Source: Saprospiraceae bacterium (GTDB taxonomy: Bacteria; Bacteroidota; Bacteroidia; Chitinophagales; Saprospiraceae). Taken from it: DNA of 64,000 nt. Under the pieces are notes generated by a model. It was not told where the DNA came from. It worked only from the letters and a program-made list of their open reading frames with translations, and made no database searches. Both the position numbers and the translations under genes were made by a program. Numbering within the stretch: the stretch's first letter is position 1; the number at the start of each line of letters is the position of its first letter. The DNA is taken from positions 1 to 64,000 of the forward strand of contig JABAQQ010000056.1 in NCBI GenBank assembly GCA_019187225.1, given 5' to 3'. Shown piece after piece: positions 6,589 through 64,000 of this stretch.

Positions 6589-6708
6589 CCCGTCCTTTTA
6601 AAAAATCCGCCTAAGCCCTCTTTTTTGTTTTTGAAAAGATTAAAAACTCCCCGCGAGGGCAATCAAGGGTTTCTAAAAGTTTGATGTTCAAAAACTTTAG
6701 ACCCGATT

Positions 6709-6736
6709 CATCACTCATCACTCATCATTCATCACT
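6709..6736 (+). repeat. CATCACT/CATCATT heptamer array before glgP start
   Basis: Four 7-bp units (CATCACT, CATCACT, CATCATT, CATCACT) end 7 bp before the glgP ATG. The same family, in the same orientation to the gene, precedes glyQS and overlaps the start of the BamA-like gene. Confidence 0.85.
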
Positions 6737-30170: not shown

Positions 30171-30205
30171 GAATGATGAATGATGAATGATAAATGATGA
30201 ATGAA
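30171..30205 (-). repeat. ATCATTC heptamer array before glyQS start
   Basis: Five 7-bp units; on the coding strand they read ATCATTC/ATCATTT and end 10 nt before the ATG. Same family and orientation as the array before glgP. Confidence 0.85.
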
Positions 30206-34789: not shown

Positions 34790-35488
34790 ATGAAAAAAAT
34801 CGTCGTCCTCACCGGAGCGGGTATTTCCGCCGAAAGCGGGATCAAGACCTTTCGCGACTCCGACGGATTGTGGGAAAACCACCGCATTGAAGACGTCGCC
34901 ACCCCCGAAGGCTGGGCCAAAAACCCCGGACTCGTGCTGGAATTTTACAACCAGCGCCGCGCACAACTTTTTGAAGTAGAGCCCAATGCAGGTCACAAGG
35001 CGCTGGCGGAACTGGAAAAGAACTTCGATGTGCACGTTGTCACCCAAAACGTGGATGACCTGCACGAGCGCGCTGGTAGCAGCCGGGTGCTGCACCTGCA
35101 CGGCGAATTGCGCAAGTCGCGCTCAGAAAGTTATCCCGACCTGATCTATGCCTGCGACGGCGATATCCGGCTGGGCGACAAATGCGCGCGCGGCGCCCAG
35201 CTCCGCCCGCACATCGTATGGTTCGGAGAAGCGGTGCCAATGCTCGAACCAGCGGCTGAGTTGGCTGCAGAAGCTGATATCTTTATTATTGTAGGCACTT
35301 CGCTCCAGGTGTATCCCGCAGCCAGCCTGATGATCTATGCCAATCCGCGCATCCCCTTTTATTACGTTGACCCACGGCCGCAGGTCAATTACGAATTGTC
35401 GCGCATGCCCAACCTGACAGTCCTTGAAGAGGCTGCTTCGACGGGGGTGAAAAAGGTGGTGGAGATGTTGGAGAGCAGTGGGCAGTAG
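34790..35488 (+). CDS. cobB: NAD-dependent sirtuin deacylase (CobB/SIRT5-like)
   Basis: 232 residues. Sirtuin motifs in order: GAGISAESGI (9-18), FRDSDGLW (21-28), TQNVDDLHE (85-93), HLHGE with catalytic His104, PHIVWFGE, and GTSLQVYPAA. Tyr53 and Arg56 (FYNQRR) form the SIRT5-type acyl-lysine pocket, so desuccinylase/demalonylase activity is plausible. The usual CxxC zinc pairs are missing, as in other Bacteroidota members. Overlaps an operon with the permease. Its last codons (SGQ and TAG) are supplied by the GGCAGTAG repeat. Confidence 0.94.
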   Translation: MKKIVVLTGAGISAESGIKTFRDSDGLWENHRIEDVATPEGWAKNPGLVLEFYNQRRAQLFEVEPNAGHKALAELEKNFDVHVVTQNVDDLHERAGSSRVLHLHGELRKSRSESYPDLIYACDGDIRLGDKCARGAQLRPHIVWFGEAVPMLEPAAELAAEADIFIIVGTSLQVYPAASLMIYANPRIPFYYVDPRPQVNYELSRMPNLTVLEEAASTGVKKVVEMLESSGQ

Positions 35489-35593
35489 CAGTGGGCAGTA
35501 GCAGTGGGCAGTAGCAGTGGGCAGTAGCAGTAGGCAGTAGGCAGTGGCAGTAGGCAGTAGCAGTAGGCAGTGGCAGTGGCAGTGGCAGTGGGC
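35475..35593 (+). repeat. GCAGTGG/GCAGTAG array overlapping the sirtuin stop
   Basis: About 119 bp of GCAGTA/GCAGTG units at 6-7 bp period. The second unit contains the sirtuin TAG stop (35486-35488). The same family and same stop arrangement occurs at 60892-60969. Confidence 0.9.
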
Positions 35594-35598
35594 AAAAC

Positions 35599-35630
35599 TT
35601 GTATTTTGGCGTTTCAGAGCGCTAAATTTG
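35599..35630 (+). promoter_or_regulatory. Promoter of the histidine-kinase gene
   Basis: TTG 35599-35601, 21 bp, TAAATTTG 35623-35630. Transcription would begin at about 35637, at the edge of the AT-rich inverted repeat, giving a leader of some 290 nt that contains that repeat and the CTACCGT array. Confidence 0.5.
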
Positions 35631-35638
35631 CGTAAGGG

Positions 35639-35732
35639 TGTTCAAAAATCTGTGTTTAATTTTTTTTAAAATATTGATTATCAATATTTTAACACAAGTG
35701 CGCCAAAAGAATTGACACAGAATTTTGAACAA
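35639..35732. repeat. AT-rich inverted repeat with 27-bp palindrome
   Basis: Outer arms TGTTCAAAAATCTGTG (35639-35654) and CACAGAATTTTGAACA (35716-35731) pair with one mismatch. Inside is a perfect palindrome at 35666-35692 (13-bp arms, TTAAAATATTGAT, one central base). A similar TGTTCAAAA ... TTTTGAGCA frame bounds 50906-51009 next to another array of the same CTACCGT family. Confidence 0.7.
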
Positions 35733-35769
35733 CGCCATTTGTGTCAAAGAAACTTCGTATCCCTTCTTG

Positions 35770-35920
35770 ACCGTCCACCATCTACCGTCTACCGTCCACC
35801 GTCTACCGTCCACCGTCTACCGTCTACCGTCCACCGTCTACCGTCCACCGTCCACCGTCTACCGTCCACCGTCTACCGTCCACCGTCCACCGTCTACCGT
35901 CCACCGTCCACCGTCTACCC
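35770..35920 (+). repeat. CTACCGT/CCACCGT heptamer array before histidine kinase
   Basis: About 21 units of exact 7-bp period ending 10 bp before the ATG at 35930. In this direction all three frames are open and encode the same heptapeptide (RPPSTVY-like), which explains long spurious reading frames here. Confidence 0.95.
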
Positions 35921-35929
35921 TTTCTAAAA

Positions 35930-37312
35930 ATGCAAATCCGCGCCCGACTCACACTCCTGTTCCTGTTCAATGCCGCTAGCATTCTGGCAGGGGTATTGGT
36001 CGCGGTGTACGTGTTGTTCAAAAAGAATACGGAAGAAGGGTTTTTCGAGGGCCTCCGGTCAAAAGCGGAGATGACCGCCCAGACAGCCCTGCGCGACCCG
36101 AACAGCCTCAAACCCCTTCCTCCCGAGTGGGTTTCGCCCGATGGCGATACGCTGCCCTACCGCGACAACATCAGTCTCTTCAACGATGCTTACGAACGTG
36201 TATTCGCCGTCCACACGGACATTCCTCCTATATCGGCCAAAGACTTACAGGATATTTATACCCAGCGCGAAGCGCGTTTCCGTCATTATAATCTTCATGC
36301 GTTGGGGCGGGTGGTCAACAGCGCGGAAGGCCGCCCGTTCGTCGTGGTGGTGGAAGGATATTGCGACCCGACACAATTGGTTCAACTGCGCAATATCCTC
36401 ATCATCGGCTTCCTCGCAGGGATGGCTCTGATCGCCGCTTCAGGATGGTATTTTTCAGGTCAGGCGCTCGCGCCCATGTCGGGAATCGTACGGGAAGTGG
36501 AAAACATCCAGCCATCCGACCTCAGCCGTCGTGTCGCTACCGGCGAAAACCGCGACGAAATTGCCCGCCTGGCTGAAACTTTCAACCGTCTGCTCGACCG
36601 CGTGGAACAAGCCTTCCGGATGCAGCAAATGTTTCTTTCCAATGTTTCTCATGAACTCAAGAACCCGCTCCAGGCCATCCGCTCGCAGCTCGACGTGACG
36701 CTTTCCCGCGAACGCGACCCGGCTGCCTATCGCACCGCCCTGCAAAGCGTGCTCGACGATGTGGACGCTATGACGGAAGTGGAGGAAAAACTCCACCAAC
36801 TCGCCCGGATTTACAACGATCCGGCAGCGATCCCCCTAACAACTGTTCGCCTCGACGAATTGATCTGGCAGGTAAAAAAACAGGTGCAAAAACGCCGTCA
36901 GGACTATAAAATCTCACTGGAACTGGGCGAAATGCCCGAGGATGAATCCGTTTTGTACATAAGAGCCAATGAAGCACTCATAAGAACTGCCCTGCTCAAT
37001 CTTATGGATAATGCCTGCAAATATTCGCCCGACCAACGGGCGCAGGTACGCGTGCGGTTCCGACCCGATGGCGCGCACGAGGTAGATATCGCCGATAATG
37101 GTCCCGGTATCCCGCAGGATGAGTTGCCGCTGATATTCGAGCCTTTTTTCCGCAGTCCCCGGCACCGGCACGTGAAAGGCACCGGCATCGGCCTTTCCCT
37201 GGTACGCAGCATCCTCAACCTGCACCGCATCGCCTTGTCCGTTGAAAGCCCGGCAGAAGGGGGTACCGTTTTTAAATTGGGGTTCCCTCCATTGCAAAGA
37301 CCGGGTTCATAA
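35930..37312 (+). CDS. Membrane sensor histidine kinase
   Basis: 460 residues: membrane helix 1 (about 7-28), a periplasmic sensor of about 120 residues, helix 2 (about 152-173), HAMP (about 174-228), HisKA with the phospho-accepting His in SNVSHELKNPL, and HATPase (N box LMDNACKYS, G1 DNGPGIP, G2 GTGIGLSL). Resembles OmpR-type partner kinases, but no response regulator gene is adjacent, so it is an orphan here. The start codon directly follows the CTACCGT array. Confidence 0.93.
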   Translation: MQIRARLTLLFLFNAASILAGVLVAVYVLFKKNTEEGFFEGLRSKAEMTAQTALRDPNSLKPLPPEWVSPDGDTLPYRDNISLFNDAYERVFAVHTDIPPISAKDLQDIYTQREARFRHYNLHALGRVVNSAEGRPFVVVVEGYCDPTQLVQLRNILIIGFLAGMALIAASGWYFSGQALAPMSGIVREVENIQPSDLSRRVATGENRDEIARLAETFNRLLDRVEQAFRMQQMFLSNVSHELKNPLQAIRSQLDVTLSRERDPAAYRTALQSVLDDVDAMTEVEEKLHQLARIYNDPAAIPLTTVRLDELIWQVKKQVQKRRQDYKISLELGEMPEDESVLYIRANEALIRTALLNLMDNACKYSPDQRAQVRVRFRPDGAHEVDIADNGPGIPQDELPLIFEPFFRSPRHRHVKGTGIGLSLVRSILNLHRIALSVESPAEGGTVFKLGFPPLQRPGS

Positions 37313-43238: not shown

Positions 43239-43266
43239 TCGATTGCGGATTGCGGATTGCGGATTG
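43239..43266 (-). repeat. AATCCGC heptamer array in scpA leader
   Basis: On the minus strand, CAATCCG units (three and a half copies) run straight into AATCGAATG, the scpA start. Inverted with respect to 43369-43462. Confidence 0.9.
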
Positions 43267-43318
43267 TGATGAAGAAACTAATAAAGCAGAGGATTTTCCT
43301 TCGTTTTTTATAATCGTG

Positions 43319-43326
43319 CAAATGTA
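43319..43326 (-). promoter_or_regulatory. -7 element (TACATTTG) of scpA
   Basis: Plus-strand CAAATGTA; exact consensus on the coding strand. Leader of about 75 nt includes the AATCCGC array. Confidence 0.5.
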
Positions 43327-43349
43327 AAGCATTCGATTATGGCCATGCG

Positions 43350-43357
43350 TATTTTTG
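43350..43357 (+). promoter_or_regulatory. -7 element (TATTTTTG) of the methyltransferase gene
   Basis: Exact TAnnTTTG. Start of transcription near 43364 would put the whole 43369-43462 array in the leader. Confidence 0.5.
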
Positions 43358-43368
43358 CCCGCTGGAAA

Positions 43369-43462
43369 AATCCGCAATCCGCAATCCGCAATCCGCAATC
43401 CGCAATCCGAAATCCGAAATCCGCAATCCGAAATCCGCAATCCGAAATCCGAAATCCGAAAT
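43369..43462 (+). repeat. AATCCGC/AATCCGA heptamer array in methyltransferase leader
   Basis: Thirteen 7-bp units (AATCCGC x5, then mixed AATCCGA and AATCCGC) ending in AATCGAATG, the methyltransferase start. Confidence 0.95.
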
Positions 43463-43465
43463 CGA

Positions 43466-49973: not shown

Positions 49974-50606
49974 CTATATCAACTTGTTTTTCAGGGCAAA
50001 TTGCACCAACCCGGCAATGCCCTGCACGTCGAGTTTCTGGATGATGTTGTTGCGGTGGGTATCCACGGTGCGTGGGCTGATGAACAATTGCCGGCCGATT
50101 TCAGTGCTGGAAAAGCCTTTGGCCACAAGGCGAAGAATTTCAATTTCGCGTTCGGTGAGTTGGGCGAGCATCGTCGCGTCGGGGCTTTGAACGGTTTTTA
50201 ACAGCGTGAGCGCCACTTCGCTGGCGAAGTAGGTTTCCCCACGCGCTACGCGCCGGATGGCGTCGCTGAATTCTTCGAGCGAGGCATTTTTGAACAAAAA
50301 ACCGCTCACACCTTTTTCCACCGCCTCTTGTATCAATTCTTTGCTTTGGAGCATGGTGAGCATGATGATTTTCACGCCGAAAAAATCGCGCTTGATCTGC
50401 TCCGTGGCTTCGAGACCGTTCATCACGGGCATTTCAAAGTCGAGCAGCGCCACGTCGGGCCGGGCGCCGCTGCGGAGCAGGTTGATGACTTCCTTGCCGT
50501 TGGCCGCTTCGCCGACGATTTCCACAAAATCGAGTTCTTCGAGCAAGGCCCGGAAGCCTTTGCGGACAAGCTGGTGGTCGTCGGCGAGGAGAAGTTTGAT
50601 TTTCAT
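49974..50606 (-). CDS. NarL/FixJ-type response regulator
   Basis: 210 residues: receiver domain (1-120; ADDHQLVRKG, phospho-acceptor Asp56 in VALLDFEMPVMNG, Lys in FLFKNAS) and LuxR-type helix-turn-helix (about 145-208; LTEREIEILRLVAKGFSSTEIG, SPRTVDTHRNNIIQKL). The upstream TPR histidine kinase on the same strand is of the matching HisKA_3 type, so they form a two-component pair. The start codon is abutted by CCACCGT units. Upstream codons would only add repeat-encoded residues. Confidence 0.95.
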   Translation of the reverse strand: MKIKLLLADDHQLVRKGFRALLEELDFVEIVGEAANGKEVINLLRSGARPDVALLDFEMPVMNGLEATEQIKRDFFGVKIIMLTMLQSKELIQEAVEKGVSGFLFKNASLEEFSDAIRRVARGETYFASEVALTLLKTVQSPDATMLAQLTEREIEILRLVAKGFSSTEIGRQLFISPRTVDTHRNNIIQKLDVQGIAGLVQFALKNKLI

Positions 50607-50610
50607 AATA

Positions 50611-50864
50611 CGGTGGACGGTGGACGGTGGACGGTGGACGGTGGACGGTGGACGGTAGACGGTAGACGGTAGACGGTGGACGGTGGACGGTGGACGGTGG
50701 ACGGTAGACGGTGGACGGTGGACGGTGGACGGTGGACGGTGGACGGTGGACGGTAGACGGTGGACGGTGGAGGGTGGACGGTGGACGGTGGACGGTGGAC
50801 GGTAGACGGTGGACGGTAGAGGGTAGACGGTGGACGGTGGACGGTGGACGGTAGACGGTGGACG
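50611..50864 (-). repeat. CCACCGT/CTACCGT heptamer array before response regulator
   Basis: About 36 units at exact 7-bp period; on the plus strand GGTGGAC/GGTAGAC. On the coding strand it ends 3-4 nt before the regulator ATG. It is the inverted partner of 51076-51259. Confidence 0.97.
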
Positions 50865-50905
50865 CCTATAAATTTGCCCATCAGGCATTTTTTCCAAATG
50901 GGAAC

Positions 50906-51009
50906 TGTTCAAAATAGTATGCTATTGTTCATTGTTTTTTTATTTAAATCAGTGATTAAATAATACTTGAATATTGTAATTTTATAAATTTAATACAGAT
51001 TTTTGAGCA
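50906..51009. repeat. AT-rich spacer element with short terminal inverted repeats
   Basis: Bounded by TGTTCAAAA (50906-50914) and TTTTGAGCA (51001-51009), about 80% A/T inside. Similar ends bound 35639-35732 beside the other CTACCGT array. No gene in 50865-51075. Confidence 0.5.
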
Positions 51010-51075
51010 ATCCCCCAAAATGCAGTGTTTATTAAACTCCTCCATGATTTCGAATATTTTAAATAAAAAATTGTT

Positions 51076-51259
51076 CGTCTACCGTCTACCGTCCACCCTC
51101 TACCGTCCACCGTCTACCGTCTACCCTCTACCGTCTACCGTCCACCGTCTACCGTCCACCGTCTACCGTCTACCCTCTACCGTCTACCGTCCACCCTCTA
51201 CCGTCCACCGTCTACCGTCTACCGTCTACCTTCTACCCTCTACCGTCTACCGTCCACCG
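51076..51259 (+). repeat. CTACCGT/CCACCGT array at the kinase 3' end
   Basis: About 26 heptamer units. On the kinase's coding strand they read GGTGGAC/GGTAGAC and provide its last codons (VDGRR) and its TAG stop (51242-51240). Confidence 0.97.
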
Positions 51260-53228
51260 GCACCCTTACCACCGACACCGTCCCTTGCGGCATTGCCCTT
51301 TCCGAATAGAATTCTCCGCCGAGCGTACTCACCCGGCTGAGGATATTCAACACGCCCATCGTGCCTTTTTGGCGCGCCGTTTCGAAGTCGAAGCCCTGTC
51401 CGTCGTCCTCCACCCGCATGATCAACTGATTGCCGGCAAGATAGACCTCGATCAACACTTTTGTGGCCCGGGCATGTTTGACGACGTTGTTGAGCAATTC
51501 CTGCAGGATGCGGTACAAGCCGATCTGGGTTTTTTCATCGAGCTGATCCGGCAGGTCTCGGCTATCGAACCGGACCTGCAGGCCGGCGGGTTGGGCGGTA
51601 TTGCGGAGGAGCAATTCGAGGCTGGGGGCTAGGCCGTGTTGTTCGAGCGTCGGCGGCATCATCACGTGAGCGATGTTGCGCACTTCGGTGCAGGAAGTAT
51701 CGAGTTGGGCGTTTAATTCGACGAAACGGGCGGTTTCCTCGGGCGCCACTTTTCCGATACGGCGGCCCAGAGCGTCGAAGCCGAGTTTGAGCGCCACCAG
51801 TTCCTGGGCAATGCCGTCGTGCAGGTCTTTGGCGATGCGTTTGCGTTCGCTTTCCTGCGCTTCAATGACGGCGTTCAATCCTAATCTTTGTTCGCGGATA
51901 ACGGCGGCGGCAAGTTCGGCTTTCTGGTGCTGGCGGGCGCGGTAGTAAAAAAACAAGCCCAATACCACCAATGCTGTCAGCCCTCCGAACAATCCAAAAA
52001 TCCAGAGGCGCTGATTGAGCAACTCCAGTTTTTGCCGGGCGATTTCGGCTTCTTTTTTCTCCGTTTCGTATTTGGTCCGGGAGTCTGCCACTTTTTCCGC
52101 CATTTGGACATTAAAAACGGAGTCCATGCCACTTCTGTATTTTTCATCGAACAGGTTGGCCTGTTCAAATTCCCCCCGCAGCAGGTGCCAGTCGCGCAGA
52201 AGAGTGTAGTTTTCGAGCAACATGGATTTGTGCTGTGTTTTTTCGGCAAGTTGGAGCGAAGCGTCGAAATATGTCTTGGCTTTATCCAGATCGCCCTTCT
52301 CCAAAAAGATACGGCCGAGTTTTGCCTGATTTTGGGAGACGGACAATTCATCCTTGTTCTCTTCCGCGAGGGAAAGCGCTTTCTGTGCGTATTCAAGCCG
52401 TTTTGGGGTATTTTTCAATGCTGTATAAACATCTGCCATGATGCCGTATAAGTACCCCAGGTGCAGTTTGTTTCCCGATTGCCGGAGTACCGTTTCGCCT
52501 TTCAGCGCTGCTTCGAGGGCTGCTTCGTACTTTTTTTGACTACGCAGCGTCTCTGCGATGTTGACGTAACAAGCGCCGATGCCAGCCGAAAAATGAATGG
52601 TTTGGAATGCCTGAAGCGCAGCATTATAGTACTGCAGGGCTTCGTCGAAGCGCTTCAAATCCATATAGGTCAACCCCAGGTTGAGCGTCGCCACGCCGAT
52701 GATTTCCGGCTTTTTGATCTTTTCAGCCTCGCGTTGCACTTCCAACTGATACACCAATGCGGAATCGAGTTTTCCCCTCCGGTAGTGGATGGTCCCCAGG
52801 CGCGTGAGCGCGCCGAGGAGATTTTTGCTCAAAGGGAGCAGGGCGCGGGCGTAAGGCAATTCTTCCCGTGTGATCTTTTCAGCCAGATCGTAGTCGCCAA
52901 AGTTGAGATATGTCTCCGAGAGGCTGTTGAGCGAGCTGGCGATGGCAGCGGTGTCCTTCAGCGATTTCCCCAGTTGCAAGCCCTCTTCGCCGTAGCGAAG
53001 CGCCTTTTCTTTGTCGGAAAACCGGTATTCCCAACTGAGCTGGTAGAGCAATTCTGCCCGCTTGTTGCCGGTCGCTGCCGGCAAGGCTCTTTCAAAACTG
53101 TCAATTTTGGATTGCGCGAGTCCACTGACACAGAACAAACTGACAAACAATGCCATGAAAAATACGCGAAGGTTTTCCGTGACGGCCGACCCGCCTGCGA
53201 AATGGACAGGGATAAGGTGTGTTTTCAT
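51240..53228 (-). CDS. TPR-containing sensor histidine kinase (HisKA_3/NarX-DesK type)
   Basis: 662 residues: signal-like segment (about 24-39, FMALFVSLFCVSGLAQ), six or more TPRs (about 45-370; ALEAALKGETVLRQSGNK, LGRIFLEKGDLDKAKTYF), one membrane helix (about 400-422, LWIFGLFGGLTALVVLGLFF), HisKA_3 dimerisation helix with the phospho-accepting His in AKDLHDGIAQELV, and a HATPase domain (ELLNNVVKHARA, VEDDGQGFD). Partner is the response regulator immediately downstream. The C-terminus and stop come from the heptamer array. Confidence 0.93.
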   Translation of the reverse strand: MKTHLIPVHFAGGSAVTENLRVFFMALFVSLFCVSGLAQSKIDSFERALPAATGNKRAELLYQLSWEYRFSDKEKALRYGEEGLQLGKSLKDTAAIASSLNSLSETYLNFGDYDLAEKITREELPYARALLPLSKNLLGALTRLGTIHYRRGKLDSALVYQLEVQREAEKIKKPEIIGVATLNLGLTYMDLKRFDEALQYYNAALQAFQTIHFSAGIGACYVNIAETLRSQKKYEAALEAALKGETVLRQSGNKLHLGYLYGIMADVYTALKNTPKRLEYAQKALSLAEENKDELSVSQNQAKLGRIFLEKGDLDKAKTYFDASLQLAEKTQHKSMLLENYTLLRDWHLLRGEFEQANLFDEKYRSGMDSVFNVQMAEKVADSRTKYETEKKEAEIARQKLELLNQRLWIFGLFGGLTALVVLGLFFYYRARQHQKAELAAAVIREQRLGLNAVIEAQESERKRIAKDLHDGIAQELVALKLGFDALGRRIGKVAPEETARFVELNAQLDTSCTEVRNIAHVMMPPTLEQHGLAPSLELLLRNTAQPAGLQVRFDSRDLPDQLDEKTQIGLYRILQELLNNVVKHARATKVLIEVYLAGNQLIMRVEDDGQGFDFETARQKGTMGVLNILSRVSTLGGEFYSERAMPQGTVSVVRVPVDGRR

Positions 53229-53318
53229 ATCTGAAAGTTGGTTGTCCAGCGTGTTTTTCGCTCGAAAGTTATGTAAAACAGCCAACTATTACCGCTTCAA
53301 TATCCGGCAGGCAGCCAC

Positions 53319-59874: not shown

Positions 59875-60906
59875 ATGATGATCAAAATGCTCTCTGTTGC
59901 CGCAATCGCCGCACTTACTGCCGGCGCCATCTTTTTCCCTGAAAACAAAACGCAGCAAACAGCCGCTCTCCCCCCGAATACCCAAATCCCCGAATCAACA
60001 AATCCCCAATCCCAACCCGAAGAACTCGGCAAAGTCAACTGGCTGCGCGACCTCGCCACAGGCAAGACCGAAGCCGAAAAAAGCGGCAAACCCATCCTGA
60101 TCCTTTTTCAGGAAGTGCCCGGCTGCTCCAACTGCACCCGCTACGGCAATTCCACCCTTTCGCACCCGCTCATCGCAGAAGCCATCGAGACGTATTTCGT
60201 GCCGGTGTGCATCTACAACAACAAAGGTGGCAAAGACGCCGAAGCGCTCAAAATTTTTGGCGAACCGGCCTGGAACAACCCTGTCGTGCGGATCGTACGC
60301 GCTGACTACAAGGATGTTGTGTTGCGTATGGCCAATTTTAATTCATCGTATCAACTGGTCGCCGGTATGCGCAACGCCCTCGACCTGACAGGCGCGGTGG
60401 TGCCCCGTTACCTGGAATTGCTGGAAGAAGAACTGCTCGCCCGTGAGGCCGGGTTGGAAACGGCCACTTTTTCGATGTACTGTTTCTGGAGCGGTGAAGG
60501 CACTTTCGGCGAAATTCCCGGAGTAGTGGAAACCGAGCCGGGTTTTCAGGACGGCAAAGAAGTAGTGAAAGTGCAGTTCAATCCCGCCGTCGTCTCCAAG
60601 TCGGAACTGGAGAAAAAAACGACTCCGAAAGGCATCGCTGCCTGCTCCAAAAACGAGGGTTTCCGCTCCGACCGCGAGCCGAAATATTACCTGGCGCAAA
60701 CAGATTACAAATACCTCCCGATAACCACTCTGCAAGCCTGTCGCGCCAACAGTCTGGTCGGGAAAAGCCTCTCGCCCGACGAATTGCTCTCCCCACGCCA
60801 GCTGGCGTTGTTGAAAACAATCAGGGAAAATCCCAAAAAGCAATGGAAAAATATGATTGGGCGGAAGGATCTGGCGAAAGCGTGGGAGGAAGGCAGTGGG
60901 CAGTAG
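59875..60906 (+). CDS. Exported thioredoxin-like + reduced MsrA-like fusion protein
   Basis: 343 residues, signal/anchor (1-21), a thioredoxin-fold half with the CxxC pair Cys84/Cys87 (GCSNC) and a C-terminal half that resembles peptide methionine sulfoxide reductase A: ATFSMYCFWSGEGTFGEIPGVVETEPGF corresponds to the MsrA ATFAGGCFWG... block (catalytic-type Cys203 kept). The usual PTYEEVCSGxTGHAE stretch between this block and EVVKVQFNP is absent. So it is a shortened or altered MsrA relative whose activity is uncertain. Residues 34-48 derive from an AATCCCC repeat. Its GSGQ-TAG end comes from the GGCAGTAG array. Confidence 0.8.
   Translation: MMIKMLSVAAIAALTAGAIFFPENKTQQTAALPPNTQIPESTNPQSQPEELGKVNWLRDLATGKTEAEKSGKPILILFQEVPGCSNCTRYGNSTLSHPLIAEAIETYFVPVCIYNNKGGKDAEALKIFGEPAWNNPVVRIVRADYKDVVLRMANFNSSYQLVAGMRNALDLTGAVVPRYLELLEEELLAREAGLETATFSMYCFWSGEGTFGEIPGVVETEPGFQDGKEVVKVQFNPAVVSKSELEKKTTPKGIAACSKNEGFRSDREPKYYLAQTDYKYLPITTLQACRANSLVGKSLSPDELLSPRQLALLKTIRENPKKQWKNMIGRKDLAKAWEEGSGQ
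59976..60018 (+). repeat. AATCCCC-type repeat inside coding sequence
   Basis: AAATCCCC/AATCCCA units with 7-9 bp spacing, just after the signal region of the thioredoxin-like protein; translated as a Pro/Asn/Gln-rich linker. Confidence 0.55.
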
Positions 60907-60969
60907 CAGTGGCAGTGGCAGTGGCAGTGGCAGTGGCAGTGGCAGTAGGCAGTGGCAGTAGGCAGTGGC
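60892..60969 (+). repeat. GGCAGTG/GGCAGTA array overlapping the stop codon
   Basis: About 78 bp of GCAGTG/GGCAGTA units, period 6-7. The second unit supplies the TAG (60904-60906). Inverted partner at 61021-61051. A GGCGGGCTTGCCCGCC hairpin (60967-60982) follows. Confidence 0.9.
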
Positions 60970-62351: not shown

Positions 62352-64000
62352 ATGCGGGTGAGGTCTTATGCGATAGAAAAAAAACAGTTGCAAGTCCTTT
62401 TCCTGGCATTTATCATTCATCATTCATCATTCTTCATTCTTTCCGCCCAAATCTCGCTCCACCTTCACATTTCCCCTTCCGAGCAAGCTGTTTTTTCCGA
62501 AAAAATAAAAGACTTTCGCCTGAAACCTGTTGAAAACCAAGTTGGTATCGCTGAGTTCTATCTACCCGATTCATCGGCGCTGGCTCCGCTTTGCCGCGAT
62601 TTGCTCCGGCACTTCCGTCAAAAATCCTTCCTTGCCGCCTCGATTGACAGCTTGCGGCAATCCGAAATCCGAAATCAGCAATCCGCAATCTTCTATTCCG
62701 GCCCGGAAATGCGTTGGGTTCATCTGCGCCCGGCAAACGGCGAAAACGACGACTGGCTCAAGGCTGCTGGTTTTCGGGAAAAACAATTTGCCGAAAAACC
62801 GCTGCGCTACGAAATGTTGCTGAAACTTCAGGAAGATATTTTGGAACAAGCCGGGAACAACGGCTATCCTTTCGCACGGGTTTGGCTCGACAGCATCGAG
62901 GTGCAGCCCGACGGCCGCGTTTCAGCCGTTCTGCAAATCGAACGCGGGCGCTTTTTTATTTTTAAACAATTGAGGATCAATGGCAATGTAAAACTGCCTT
63001 CCGCTTATCTACCCAACTATTTAGGCTTGAAAACCGGCGATCCCTACAGTCGCGCCCGGGTGTTGCGCATCCGCGAACAAATGCGAACACTCCTGTTCCT
63101 GGAAACGACCGGCAACCCGACCGTGACTTTTTCGGGCACCAACGCCACCCGGCCCGGCCAGACAGAAGGCGAGGCCACCGTCAATTTGTATTTGCAGAAA
63201 AAAAAGGCCAGTCGCTTCGACTTTGTTATCGGTCTGCTTCCCCAACCCAACGCTACCGATGGCAAATTGCTGCTGACCGGGTCGCTCAGCACGGCTTTTC
63301 AAAATGCCCTGAACCTCGGCGAGCGATTCGCCGTAGAGTTCGAGCGGCTGCGACCGGAAACGCAAAAACTCGACGTTCAGGCGGGGATCCCCTACCTGCT
63401 CGGGTCGCCGTTCGGCGTGGAAGGGCGACTCAATATCTTTCGGCGCGACAGCACCTGGGTGGACGCGCAAAGCGATCTGGGGGTCTCCTACCTGTTCACG
63501 GGTGGCGATTACGTCAAATTGTTGTGGGAAAACAAATCTTCCTCGCTGCAAAAAGTGGACACGCTCGCTGTGCTTCAAAACCGCCAACTCCCGCCTAACC
63601 TCGACTACCGCCAAAACGCCTATGGCCTCGAAGTGGGCATGACCCGGCTCGATTACCGCTTCAATCCGCGCCAGGGTTGGGCGGTGCAAATCCGCTCGCT
63701 GGCAGGCTTTAATACCGTGAAACGCAACAACCAAATTGAAAATTTACGCGACCCCAATGACCTCGAATTTGATTTCGCGGCTTTGTACGATACCGTGACC
63801 GAACGCGCGACCCGTTATCGTCTGGAAGGGCGCGCAGAGGTATATTTTCCTTTTTTTCAGCGAACAACCCTGAAAATTGGCGTGCGGGGAGGCAGTATTT
63901 TTTCAAAAAAACCGGTTTACAACAACGAACAATACCGGCTTGGCGGCAACAAACTGCTCCGTGGCTTCGACGAAGAAAGTCTCTTCGCCTCCCGCTTTGT
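62352..64000 (+). CDS. BamA/TamA-type outer-membrane assembly protein (partial)
   Basis: Open from the ATG at 62352 to the end of the window (about 550 residues, incomplete). Signal peptide region (IEKKQLQVLFLAF ... SAQ) is partly encoded by the CATCATT array (62411-62438). Then POTRA-like segments (YPFARVWLDSIEVQPDGRVSAV, INGNVKLPSAYLPNYLGLKTGDPYS), and the start of the 16-stranded Omp85 barrel (NPTVTFSGTNAT, RLDYRFNPRQGWAVQIR, RLGGNKLLRGFDEESLFASRF). The FDEESLFA-type element resembles the conserved L6 region (VRGF/Y-like RGF). Inserts or assembles outer-membrane proteins. A second repeat, AATCCGA, is inside the coding sequence at 62658-62690. Confidence 0.85.
   Translation, partial: MRVRSYAIEKKQLQVLFLAFIIHHSSFFILSAQISLHLHISPSEQAVFSEKIKDFRLKPVENQVGIAEFYLPDSSALAPLCRDLLRHFRQKSFLAASIDSLRQSEIRNQQSAIFYSGPEMRWVHLRPANGENDDWLKAAGFREKQFAEKPLRYEMLLKLQEDILEQAGNNGYPFARVWLDSIEVQPDGRVSAVLQIERGRFFIFKQLRINGNVKLPSAYLPNYLGLKTGDPYSRARVLRIREQMRTLLFLETTGNPTVTFSGTNATRPGQTEGEATVNLYLQKKKASRFDFVIGLLPQPNATDGKLLLTGSLSTAFQNALNLGERFAVEFERLRPETQKLDVQAGIPYLLGSPFGVEGRLNIFRRDSTWVDAQSDLGVSYLFTGGDYVKLLWENKSSSLQKVDTLAVLQNRQLPPNLDYRQNAYGLEVGMTRLDYRFNPRQGWAVQIRSLAGFNTVKRNNQIENLRDPNDLEFDFAALYDTVTERATRYRLEGRAEVYFPFFQRTTLKIGVRGGSIFSKKPVYNNEQYRLGGNKLLRGFDEESLFASRF
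62411..62438 (+). repeat. CATCATT heptamer array encoding the signal peptide core
   Basis: Units TATCATT, CATCATT, CATCATT, CTTCATT. In the BamA-like frame they encode FIIHHSSFFIL, i.e. the hydrophobic core of the signal peptide. Confidence 0.8.
62658..62690 (+). repeat. AATCCGA/AATCCGC repeat inside the BamA-like gene
   Basis: About four and a half heptamers (AATCCGA x2, AATCAGC, AATCCGC, AATC). Same family as the scpA/methyltransferase leaders, here within the coding frame (RQSEIRNQQSAI). Confidence 0.75.

Follow-up and report, generated by a model that had tools for sequence, protein, structure and literature searches.

What is a mirrored pair of heptamer arrays doing between a sensor histidine kinase gene and the gene of its response regulator, and is it peculiar to this one locus? 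Both genes are coded on the minus strand of contig JABAQQ010000056.1 of a Saprospiraceae bacterium, of which positions 1 to 64,000 were analyzed (64,000 nt, referred to as the window; Table 1). The pair proved to be real, non-random and one case of a genome-wide pattern, in which arrays of many unrelated short units with periods of 6-10 lie against starts and stops of genes alike and turn their C-rich strand toward the gene.

Tandem Repeats Finder (TRF) resolved the two arms into 36.4 copies (93% matches) on the start side and 26.3 copies (86% matches) on the stop side, in agreement with the 36 and 26 units counted in an earlier interpretation of the bare letters (hereafter, the sequence-only reading). 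The arms are inverted relative to each other and reach 208 nt in length at a complementarity of 86%; taken as arms of 184 nt, separated by 211 nt, they are 89% complementary. The ~200-bp inverted repeat described there thus holds up as well. As that reading had also claimed, the kinase stop codon TAG lies inside a GGTAGAC/GGTGGAC array, the stop-side arm overlapping the 3′ end of the gene, and a CCACCGT/CTACCGT array abuts the regulator start codon, from which it is separated by three nucleotides (ATT). From stop to start, the gap spans 633 bp. The kinase protein closes with the residues VRVPVDGRR, and in four of five relatives (L114, L115, L116 and L117; L118 ends differently) it terminates with VPV or VPI at the equivalent point, indicating that DGRR and the stop codon derive from the repeat. 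The preceding valine, previously counted as part of a repeat-encoded VDGRR, belongs instead to this VPV/VPI end. The start of the kinase gene is a prediction of our own open reading frame (ORF) caller, and a TTG codon at 53285 is an alternative start. Genome-wide, a three-unit CYACCGT pattern gave 471 + 421 matches (overlapping), while the reversed control gave 0.

Table 1 Features of the kinase-regulator locus, and other arrays and dispersed elements with listed coordinates. Positions refer to the window unless prefixed by a contig label of the same genome.
Feature	Positions	Strand	Description and basis
Response regulator gene, LuxR-type	49974..50606	-	Receiver + GerE/LuxR helix-turn-helix (Pfam PF00072, PF00196); ATG at 50604-50606
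Start-side arm, ~36 units	50610..50864	-	CYACCGT in coding direction; TRF, sequence, unit list
Spacer between arms, 211 bp	50865..51075	.	AT-rich, 25% GC; sequence
Dispersed MITE-like element, ~119 bp	50896..51014	.	blastn
Stop-side arm, ~26 units	51076..51259	+	CYACCGT with CYACCCT variants on +, GGTRGAC in kinase coding direction; TRF, unit list
Kinase stop codon TAG	51240..51242	-	From GGTAGAC unit; sequence
Sensor histidine kinase gene	51240..53228	-	TPR repeats, HisKA_3, HATPase_c (Pfam); translation ends VPVDGRR and stop
CYACCGT array	35770..35919	+	Start side of kinase gene at 35930; TRF
AATCCGC inverted pair	43241..43463 (43241-43266 and 43369-43463)	.	Between divergent genes; layout like that of the kinase-regulator pair, other unit; TRF
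~175-bp element copies	C1:226491-226772, C1:6575-6762, C1:317427-317599, C2:27084-27256, C3:51273-51447, C4:140854-141033	both strands match

The sequence-only reading had proposed a genome-wide search for orientation bias of such arrays relative to coding strands and for their enrichment at gene boundaries. Both were found in our sample of 1.59 Mb of the 7.18-Mb genome (22%), for which a codon-usage ORF caller returned 1124 genes, with starts as predicted by the caller and stops fixed by frame, and arrays were taken from TRF. Intergenic CYACCGT arrays of at least three units turned their C-rich strand toward the nearest gene edge in 39/42 cases, at a median distance of 1 bp, and were split about equally between starts and stops; 8/50 CYACCGT arrays lay inside called genes. 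This orientation was picked after seeing CYACCGT, and all other families, other periods and the genomes G021, G009 and G331 are follow-up. Two arrays lacking a gene on one side were dropped from the counts made after that of the period-7 families, as were, from the pooled test onward, arrays whose C and G contents are equal.

Clusters of period 7 (or a multiple) numbered 219, with 41 inside called genes and 178 intergenic, and comprised the families AATCCGC, CYACCGT, AATGTCC, AACAACC and AACGTCC, among others. Taken together, these intergenic arrays pointed their C-rich strand toward the nearest gene in 145 cases and away from it in 32, with one neutral (145/177 oriented). Other periods tended in this direction as well (toward:away, 15:2 for period 6, 40:6 for 8, 22:8 for 9, 22:10 for 10 and 16:3 for 15). 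Pooling of periods 6-16 yielded 438 clusters, of which 342 intergenic and strand-biased ones were left after removal of in-gene, neutral or one-sided arrays. Here, the C-rich strand entered the nearest gene in 280/342 cases, at starts (148:21) as well as at stops (132:41). Arrays that were both oriented toward the edge and within 15 bp of it amounted to 221/342; 1000 random placements within the same gaps averaged 79 such arrays and peaked at 101.

Arrays come in pairs by gap and not by gene. A 7-mer was common to 35/43 pairs of arrays at both ends of a gap, against 10% of random pairs, and to only 1/31 pairs at both ends of a gene; the latter count led us to reject a gene cassette flanked by its own repeats. 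Among 77 gaps with at least two arrays, 66 showed exactly a G-rich arm followed by a C-rich arm, three the reverse order and eight other patterns. A search of 160 single-array gaps (22 more being too short) revealed a short inverted partner in 41, compared with 4 same-strand partners and 2 in random controls. The recurrent layout is that of a putative stem-loop cassette, in which the G-rich arm occupies the left border of the gap and the C-rich arm the right one, with a loop or spacer in between, and RNA from either strand has the G-rich arm first. The 66 two-array gaps and the 41 with a short hidden partner make about a hundred such cassettes in the sampled 22% of the genome, and by extrapolation several hundred in the whole. 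The order of unit variants matched between the arms in 14/60 pairs (p<0.05).

The border rule extends to two relatives of the same genus. In G021, arrays of period 7 were oriented 24 toward and 6 away, and those of period 8, 33 to 4; in G009 (600 kb, periods 6-16) the ratio was 61 to 10, with 3 neutral. Across the 394 kb of G021 that we surveyed (L143-L162), octamer arrays (37, with AAACACTC the commonest) outnumber heptamer arrays (26) and follow the border rule. G007 offered two usable period-7 arrays, one each way. CYACCGT itself is a rare unit, occurring in 5/40 genomes, namely this one, G009 (one match), G017, G021 and G022, and in 2/295 genomes of a draw from the class, the second being G331. 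The latter belongs to another family of the class and carries CYACCGT beside CCACTGT/CCACAGT variants (L283-L287), which may reflect either horizontal spread or convergence. The first five distinct places listed for G331 hold six arrays, all of which point toward a gene edge; in five cases this edge is a stop, located at the array or no more than 20 bp from it, as read from array and longest-ORF coordinates. Of only 15 intergenic arrays found in 80 loci of named relatives plus one 20-kb stretch of G022, with genes called simply as longest ORFs, 7 pointed toward the gene, 6 pointed away and 2 were neutral. For Bacteroidota at large, the rule is therefore not established.

Orthologs of the kinase and regulator genes adjoin in five relatives of the same genus (G009, G007, G017, G010 and G014; L114-L118), where stop and start are only 30, 33, 15, 52 and 37 bp apart, respectively, as opposed to the 633 bp found here. 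Short runs containing ACCGT directly precede the regulator ATG in G007 and G010. Of 46 gene neighborhoods conserved with G009, 11 contain array-bearing gaps, whose median length is 128 bp in the present genome but 14 bp in G009; a G009 gap of at most 15 bp was found for 6/11 of these and for 3/35 of the others (p=0.003). At the 11 gaps, G009 has no arrays in seven and different units in four. G009 arrays thus accompany 4/11 array-bearing gaps and 4/35 others, which is no clear excess (p=0.08), one of each four being an AT-rich 12- or 13-mer. At the convergent gap C2:323975 the layout is kept and the letters differ, AATTTCC arms here corresponding to AATGACCCCT-type arms in G009.

The 211-bp spacer has the length and the AT-richness assigned to it by the sequence-only reading, yet it is not plain filler, as it contains a dispersed element reminiscent of a miniature inverted-repeat transposable element (MITE). 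blastn detected three further copies in the 1.59 Mb (C2:27267-27383, C3:203177-203270 and C1:260046-260135; 79-80% identity), and its ends, judged by eye, resemble inverted GGGAYTGYTCAAAA. At least two of these three relatives sit in gaps bordered by arrays of other units. Since the core of the element recurs in gaps with arrays of other units, a MITE or transposon with heptamers as its ends is not supported. A second dispersed element of ~175 bp, imperfectly palindromic and hence matching both strands, has six copies in the sampled sequence, and several of them lie in array spacers. Finally, a ~110-bp dispersed sequence (C2:202411-202523) has about 20 relatives, with some copies beside AATGTCC-type arrays.

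As RNA, a 671-nt stretch across the locus was predicted to fold with -382.4 kcal/mol, compared with -204.75 ± 4.89 kcal/mol in 20 shuffles, i.e. 36 standard deviations lower, in support of the large hairpin envisaged by the sequence-only reading. Because the start-side arm is the longer one, its last C-rich units and the start region of the regulator gene stay unpaired in this predicted fold. Separate expression of kinase and regulator through the predicted hairpin, as suggested there, is plausible. Other regulatory signals were sought in the gap: the Bacteroidota-type promoter TANNTTTG had no match on the coding strand of the spacer, which led us to reject such a promoter there (one match falls on the plus strand); an intrinsic terminator was rejected, the C-rich arm reaching to 3 nt before the ATG with no T-run after it; and Rfam models gave 0 matches at gathering score within 50000-52000.

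How might such cassettes arise, and what might they do? Our tentative interpretation, to which we assign a probability of roughly 0.4, is that stem-loop cassettes of short tandem repeats fill gene gaps, open up tight stop-start junctions and uncouple the cistrons on either side. The gaps would arise by expansion of originally tight junctions, whose ancestral size is suggested by the relatives. Arms may lengthen by slippage, in steps of one unit, their complementarity being kept partly by mutual copying through template switching and partly by selection. On a polycistronic transcript, the kinase-regulator gap would then form a long double-stranded stem that ends translational coupling and is a likely substrate of RNase III, such that the two cistrons would be expressed separately. 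The longer arm would contribute its unpaired end, rich in C and poor in G, as the leader of the regulator mRNA. Array-free gene leaders in this genome are indeed G-poor (G 0.158, C 0.26), and the start-side polarity would fit such leaders, with the stop-side polarity possibly inherited from the geometry of the hairpin. This interpretation draws on the strand and edge rule, the pairing of arms within gaps, the variant order common to some arms, the shorter gaps of the relatives, the G-poor leaders and the unpaired start region of the regulator gene. Positions, polarity and pairing by gap are observed, while origin, RNase III processing and uncoupling are inferred.

Several observations weigh against the uncoupling cassettes. 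Only one array was detected in 182/259 array-bearing gaps, and singles without a partner obey the polarity too (109/136, i.e. 109 to 27); the hairpin is therefore not the whole story. Pairs between convergent genes likewise have the G-rich arm first (12, with 1 reversed), and array-free 3′ flanks show no excess of G over C (0.221 vs 0.218). Selection on leaders alone thus cannot set the polarity, and the stop-side orientation needs another cause, be it inheritance through the hairpin or a gene-edge process acting on DNA or RNA. Gaps without arrays (35 conserved neighborhoods) are likewise somewhat longer in this genome, with medians of 124 bp here and 84 bp in G009. G022, the nearest genome by kinase identity, has neither a regulator gene nor an array within 1.5 kb after the kinase gene, implying that the arrangement is not conserved. 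Variant order failed to match in any of the CYACCGT pairs tested, the one studied here included (p=0.61); recent copying of one of its arms from the other was accordingly not seen.

Nearly as likely as the uncoupling cassettes is a purely mutational, selfish origin, whereby polymerase slippage would make the arrays, template switching would copy them across the gap, and they would survive only where they do least harm, immediately outside coding sequence, without any cellular function. Template switching has been reported as a source of hairpins (PMC8794818), and the common behavior of many units and periods, the variant order shared between some arms, the dispersed elements in several spacers and the turnover of arrays at orthologous gaps relative to G009 all speak for this scenario. 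By itself, however, it accounts neither for the entry of the C-rich strand into the gene at starts and stops alike nor for the position of the arrays at the edge rather than in mid-gap. A more sweeping proposal would take short tandem arrays of nearly any unit as a strand-polarity signal at bacterial gene borders that is independent of sequence and length, with the C-rich strand entering both ends and mostly one mirrored unit per gap, and that arose repeatedly (in Bacteroidota, Xanthomonas and Nostoc) through a process of general nature, be it selection on the RNA that passes into and out of genes or a mechanism of replication able to detect the edges of genes; this we regard as rather unlikely. 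C-rich, G-poor RNA is a loading site for Rho, which is insensitive to the exact repeat unit. Were the arrays to load Rho on untranslated RNA entering a gene, thereby silencing antisense and read-through transcription, both gene ends would be unified, since sense RNA entering at starts and antisense RNA entering at stops are both C-rich, and the observed indifference to the unit would follow; partnerless singles show a compatible bias at convergent stops (18 toward, 2 away) and at codirectional stops (27 to 16). Against this insulation by Rho, which we consider improbable, the predicted hairpin would mask the C-rich arm in paired gaps. Moreover, cyanobacteria are not known to possess Rho. The border rule has nevertheless also been reported for Nostoc (PMC4692102).

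Two further explanations, both very improbable as general causes, can be judged from the unit sequences themselves. GGTGGAC arrays could give rise to two-tier G-quadruplexes, structures considered for the heptamers of Xanthomonas and Nostoc, whose location rule is the same (PMC4692102), and arrays with a run of at least three Gs within 15 bp of an edge are strongly oriented (61 toward, 3 away). But 175/239 arrays within that distance lack GGG, and they are oriented as well (160 toward, 15 away), as for the most part are those without any GG (23 to 4); quadruplexes are hence not the general cause. The repeats may alternatively have been oriented at gene ends such that an invading array supplies a stop codon. 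This holds for the present kinase, with its TAG from GGTAGAC, and where all three frames of the G-rich strand contain stops, arrays at stop edges point 34 toward and 1 away. Arrays with no stop in any of these frames, however, still point toward the gene 23 to 4, and among period-7 arrays the balance is 49 to 9 where the unit cannot supply a stop and 20 to 1 where it can. Stop-codon supply is thus contradicted as a general cause, although it may contribute for CYACCGT.

Additional arrays were recorded in the window and elsewhere in this genome. The gap 35474-35929 has unlike units at its ends, with GCAGTG hexamers (35474-35591) after a Sir2 gene and CYACCGT before a HisKA kinase gene, and as such is an exception to the rule of one unit per gap; its spacer matches a neighboring part of the spacer C1:259908-260155, which itself holds a relative of the 119-bp element. 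Shorter window arrays found by TRF, at 30171-30204, 62407-62439, 6708-6736 and 60892-60969, consist of the units GAATGAT, CATTCAT, TCATCAC and GGCAGT, and the one at 30171-30204 overlaps the ATG of an ORF at 30201. Outside the window, the gap C1:35066-35611 (L032) is 545 bp long in this genome, compared with 14 bp in both G007 and G009, and is built in the order array, small gene, array. The small gene, which our gene caller missed, codes for a 23S rRNA intervening-sequence protein (PF05635, E 1.2e-24), and its 3′ end extends into the adjoining array.

How do these arrays relate to repeats described in other bacteria? Short tandemly repeated repetitive sequences (STRRs) of cyanobacteria are dispersed heptamer arrays and in this respect similar, but the present host is a member of the Saprospiraceae within Bacteroidota. 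Repetitive extragenic palindromic sequences (REPs) and bacterial interspersed mosaic elements (BIMEs) are inverted repeats scattered over intergenic regions that fold when transcribed, REPs being single palindromes of one family; the arrays studied here share the dispersed, intergenic and inverted character, yet are composed of tandem short units.

The sequence-only reading knew of no description of such a gene-boundary rule in Bacteroidota, and this claim has to be amended. A related precedent comes from the heptamer TAACTGA, which precedes start codons in marine Beggiatoaceae, cyanobacteria and five Bacteroidetes (MacGregor 2015; PMC4679880). In one of the latter, Flexibacter litoralis, 12/14 sets lie in forward orientation upstream of starts and one lies reversed just after a stop (PMC4679880). 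The likeness is one of heptamer arrays just upstream of starts; TAACTGA was proposed as a site for a translational regulator, and the available part of that paper contains no pairing rule across gaps (PMC4679880).

Closest are the GGGAATC and GGGGA(C/T)T heptamers of Xanthomonas and Nostoc, which are mostly intergenic and include unit variants (Rehm et al. 2015; PMC4692102). Upstream of ORFs their G-rich strand is antisense, and at stops, some of which the repeats overlap, it is sense, at distances of no more than 50 bp in either case; 70 and 75 inverted pairs were counted in two Xanthomonas genomes, with few in Nostoc, and no function is reported (PMC4692102). These heptamers show a preference for four units (PMC4692102); the two arms at the kinase-regulator locus have 36 and 26. 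The border rule itself is therefore not new. The two systems, compared by published description, share intergenic heptamers, border polarity and inverted pairs, and they part where Xanthomonas and Nostoc have one unit type per organism studied and a quadruplex reading (PMC4692102). The Saprospiraceae genome, in contrast, has many unrelated families with periods of 6-10, GG-free arrays, array lengths of up to 46 units and, in most cases, a single unit at both ends of a gap, and G-runs of the quadruplex type (at least three) are absent from GGTGGAC/GGTAGAC, whose runs are of two, GGG appearing only in scattered GAGGGTRG variants. New are the independence of the rule from sequence and unit length, and the mirrored pairing with one unit per gap, for neither of which an earlier description turned up in the literature searched (open-licence PMC papers). 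While bacterial heptamer arrays have repeatedly been noted without a function, dozens of unrelated units under one polarity rule separate the rule from the sequence. This speaks against quadruplexes, the supply of stop codons or proteins that bind a single site as the overall cause, and directs attention to the geometry of RNA or of replication.
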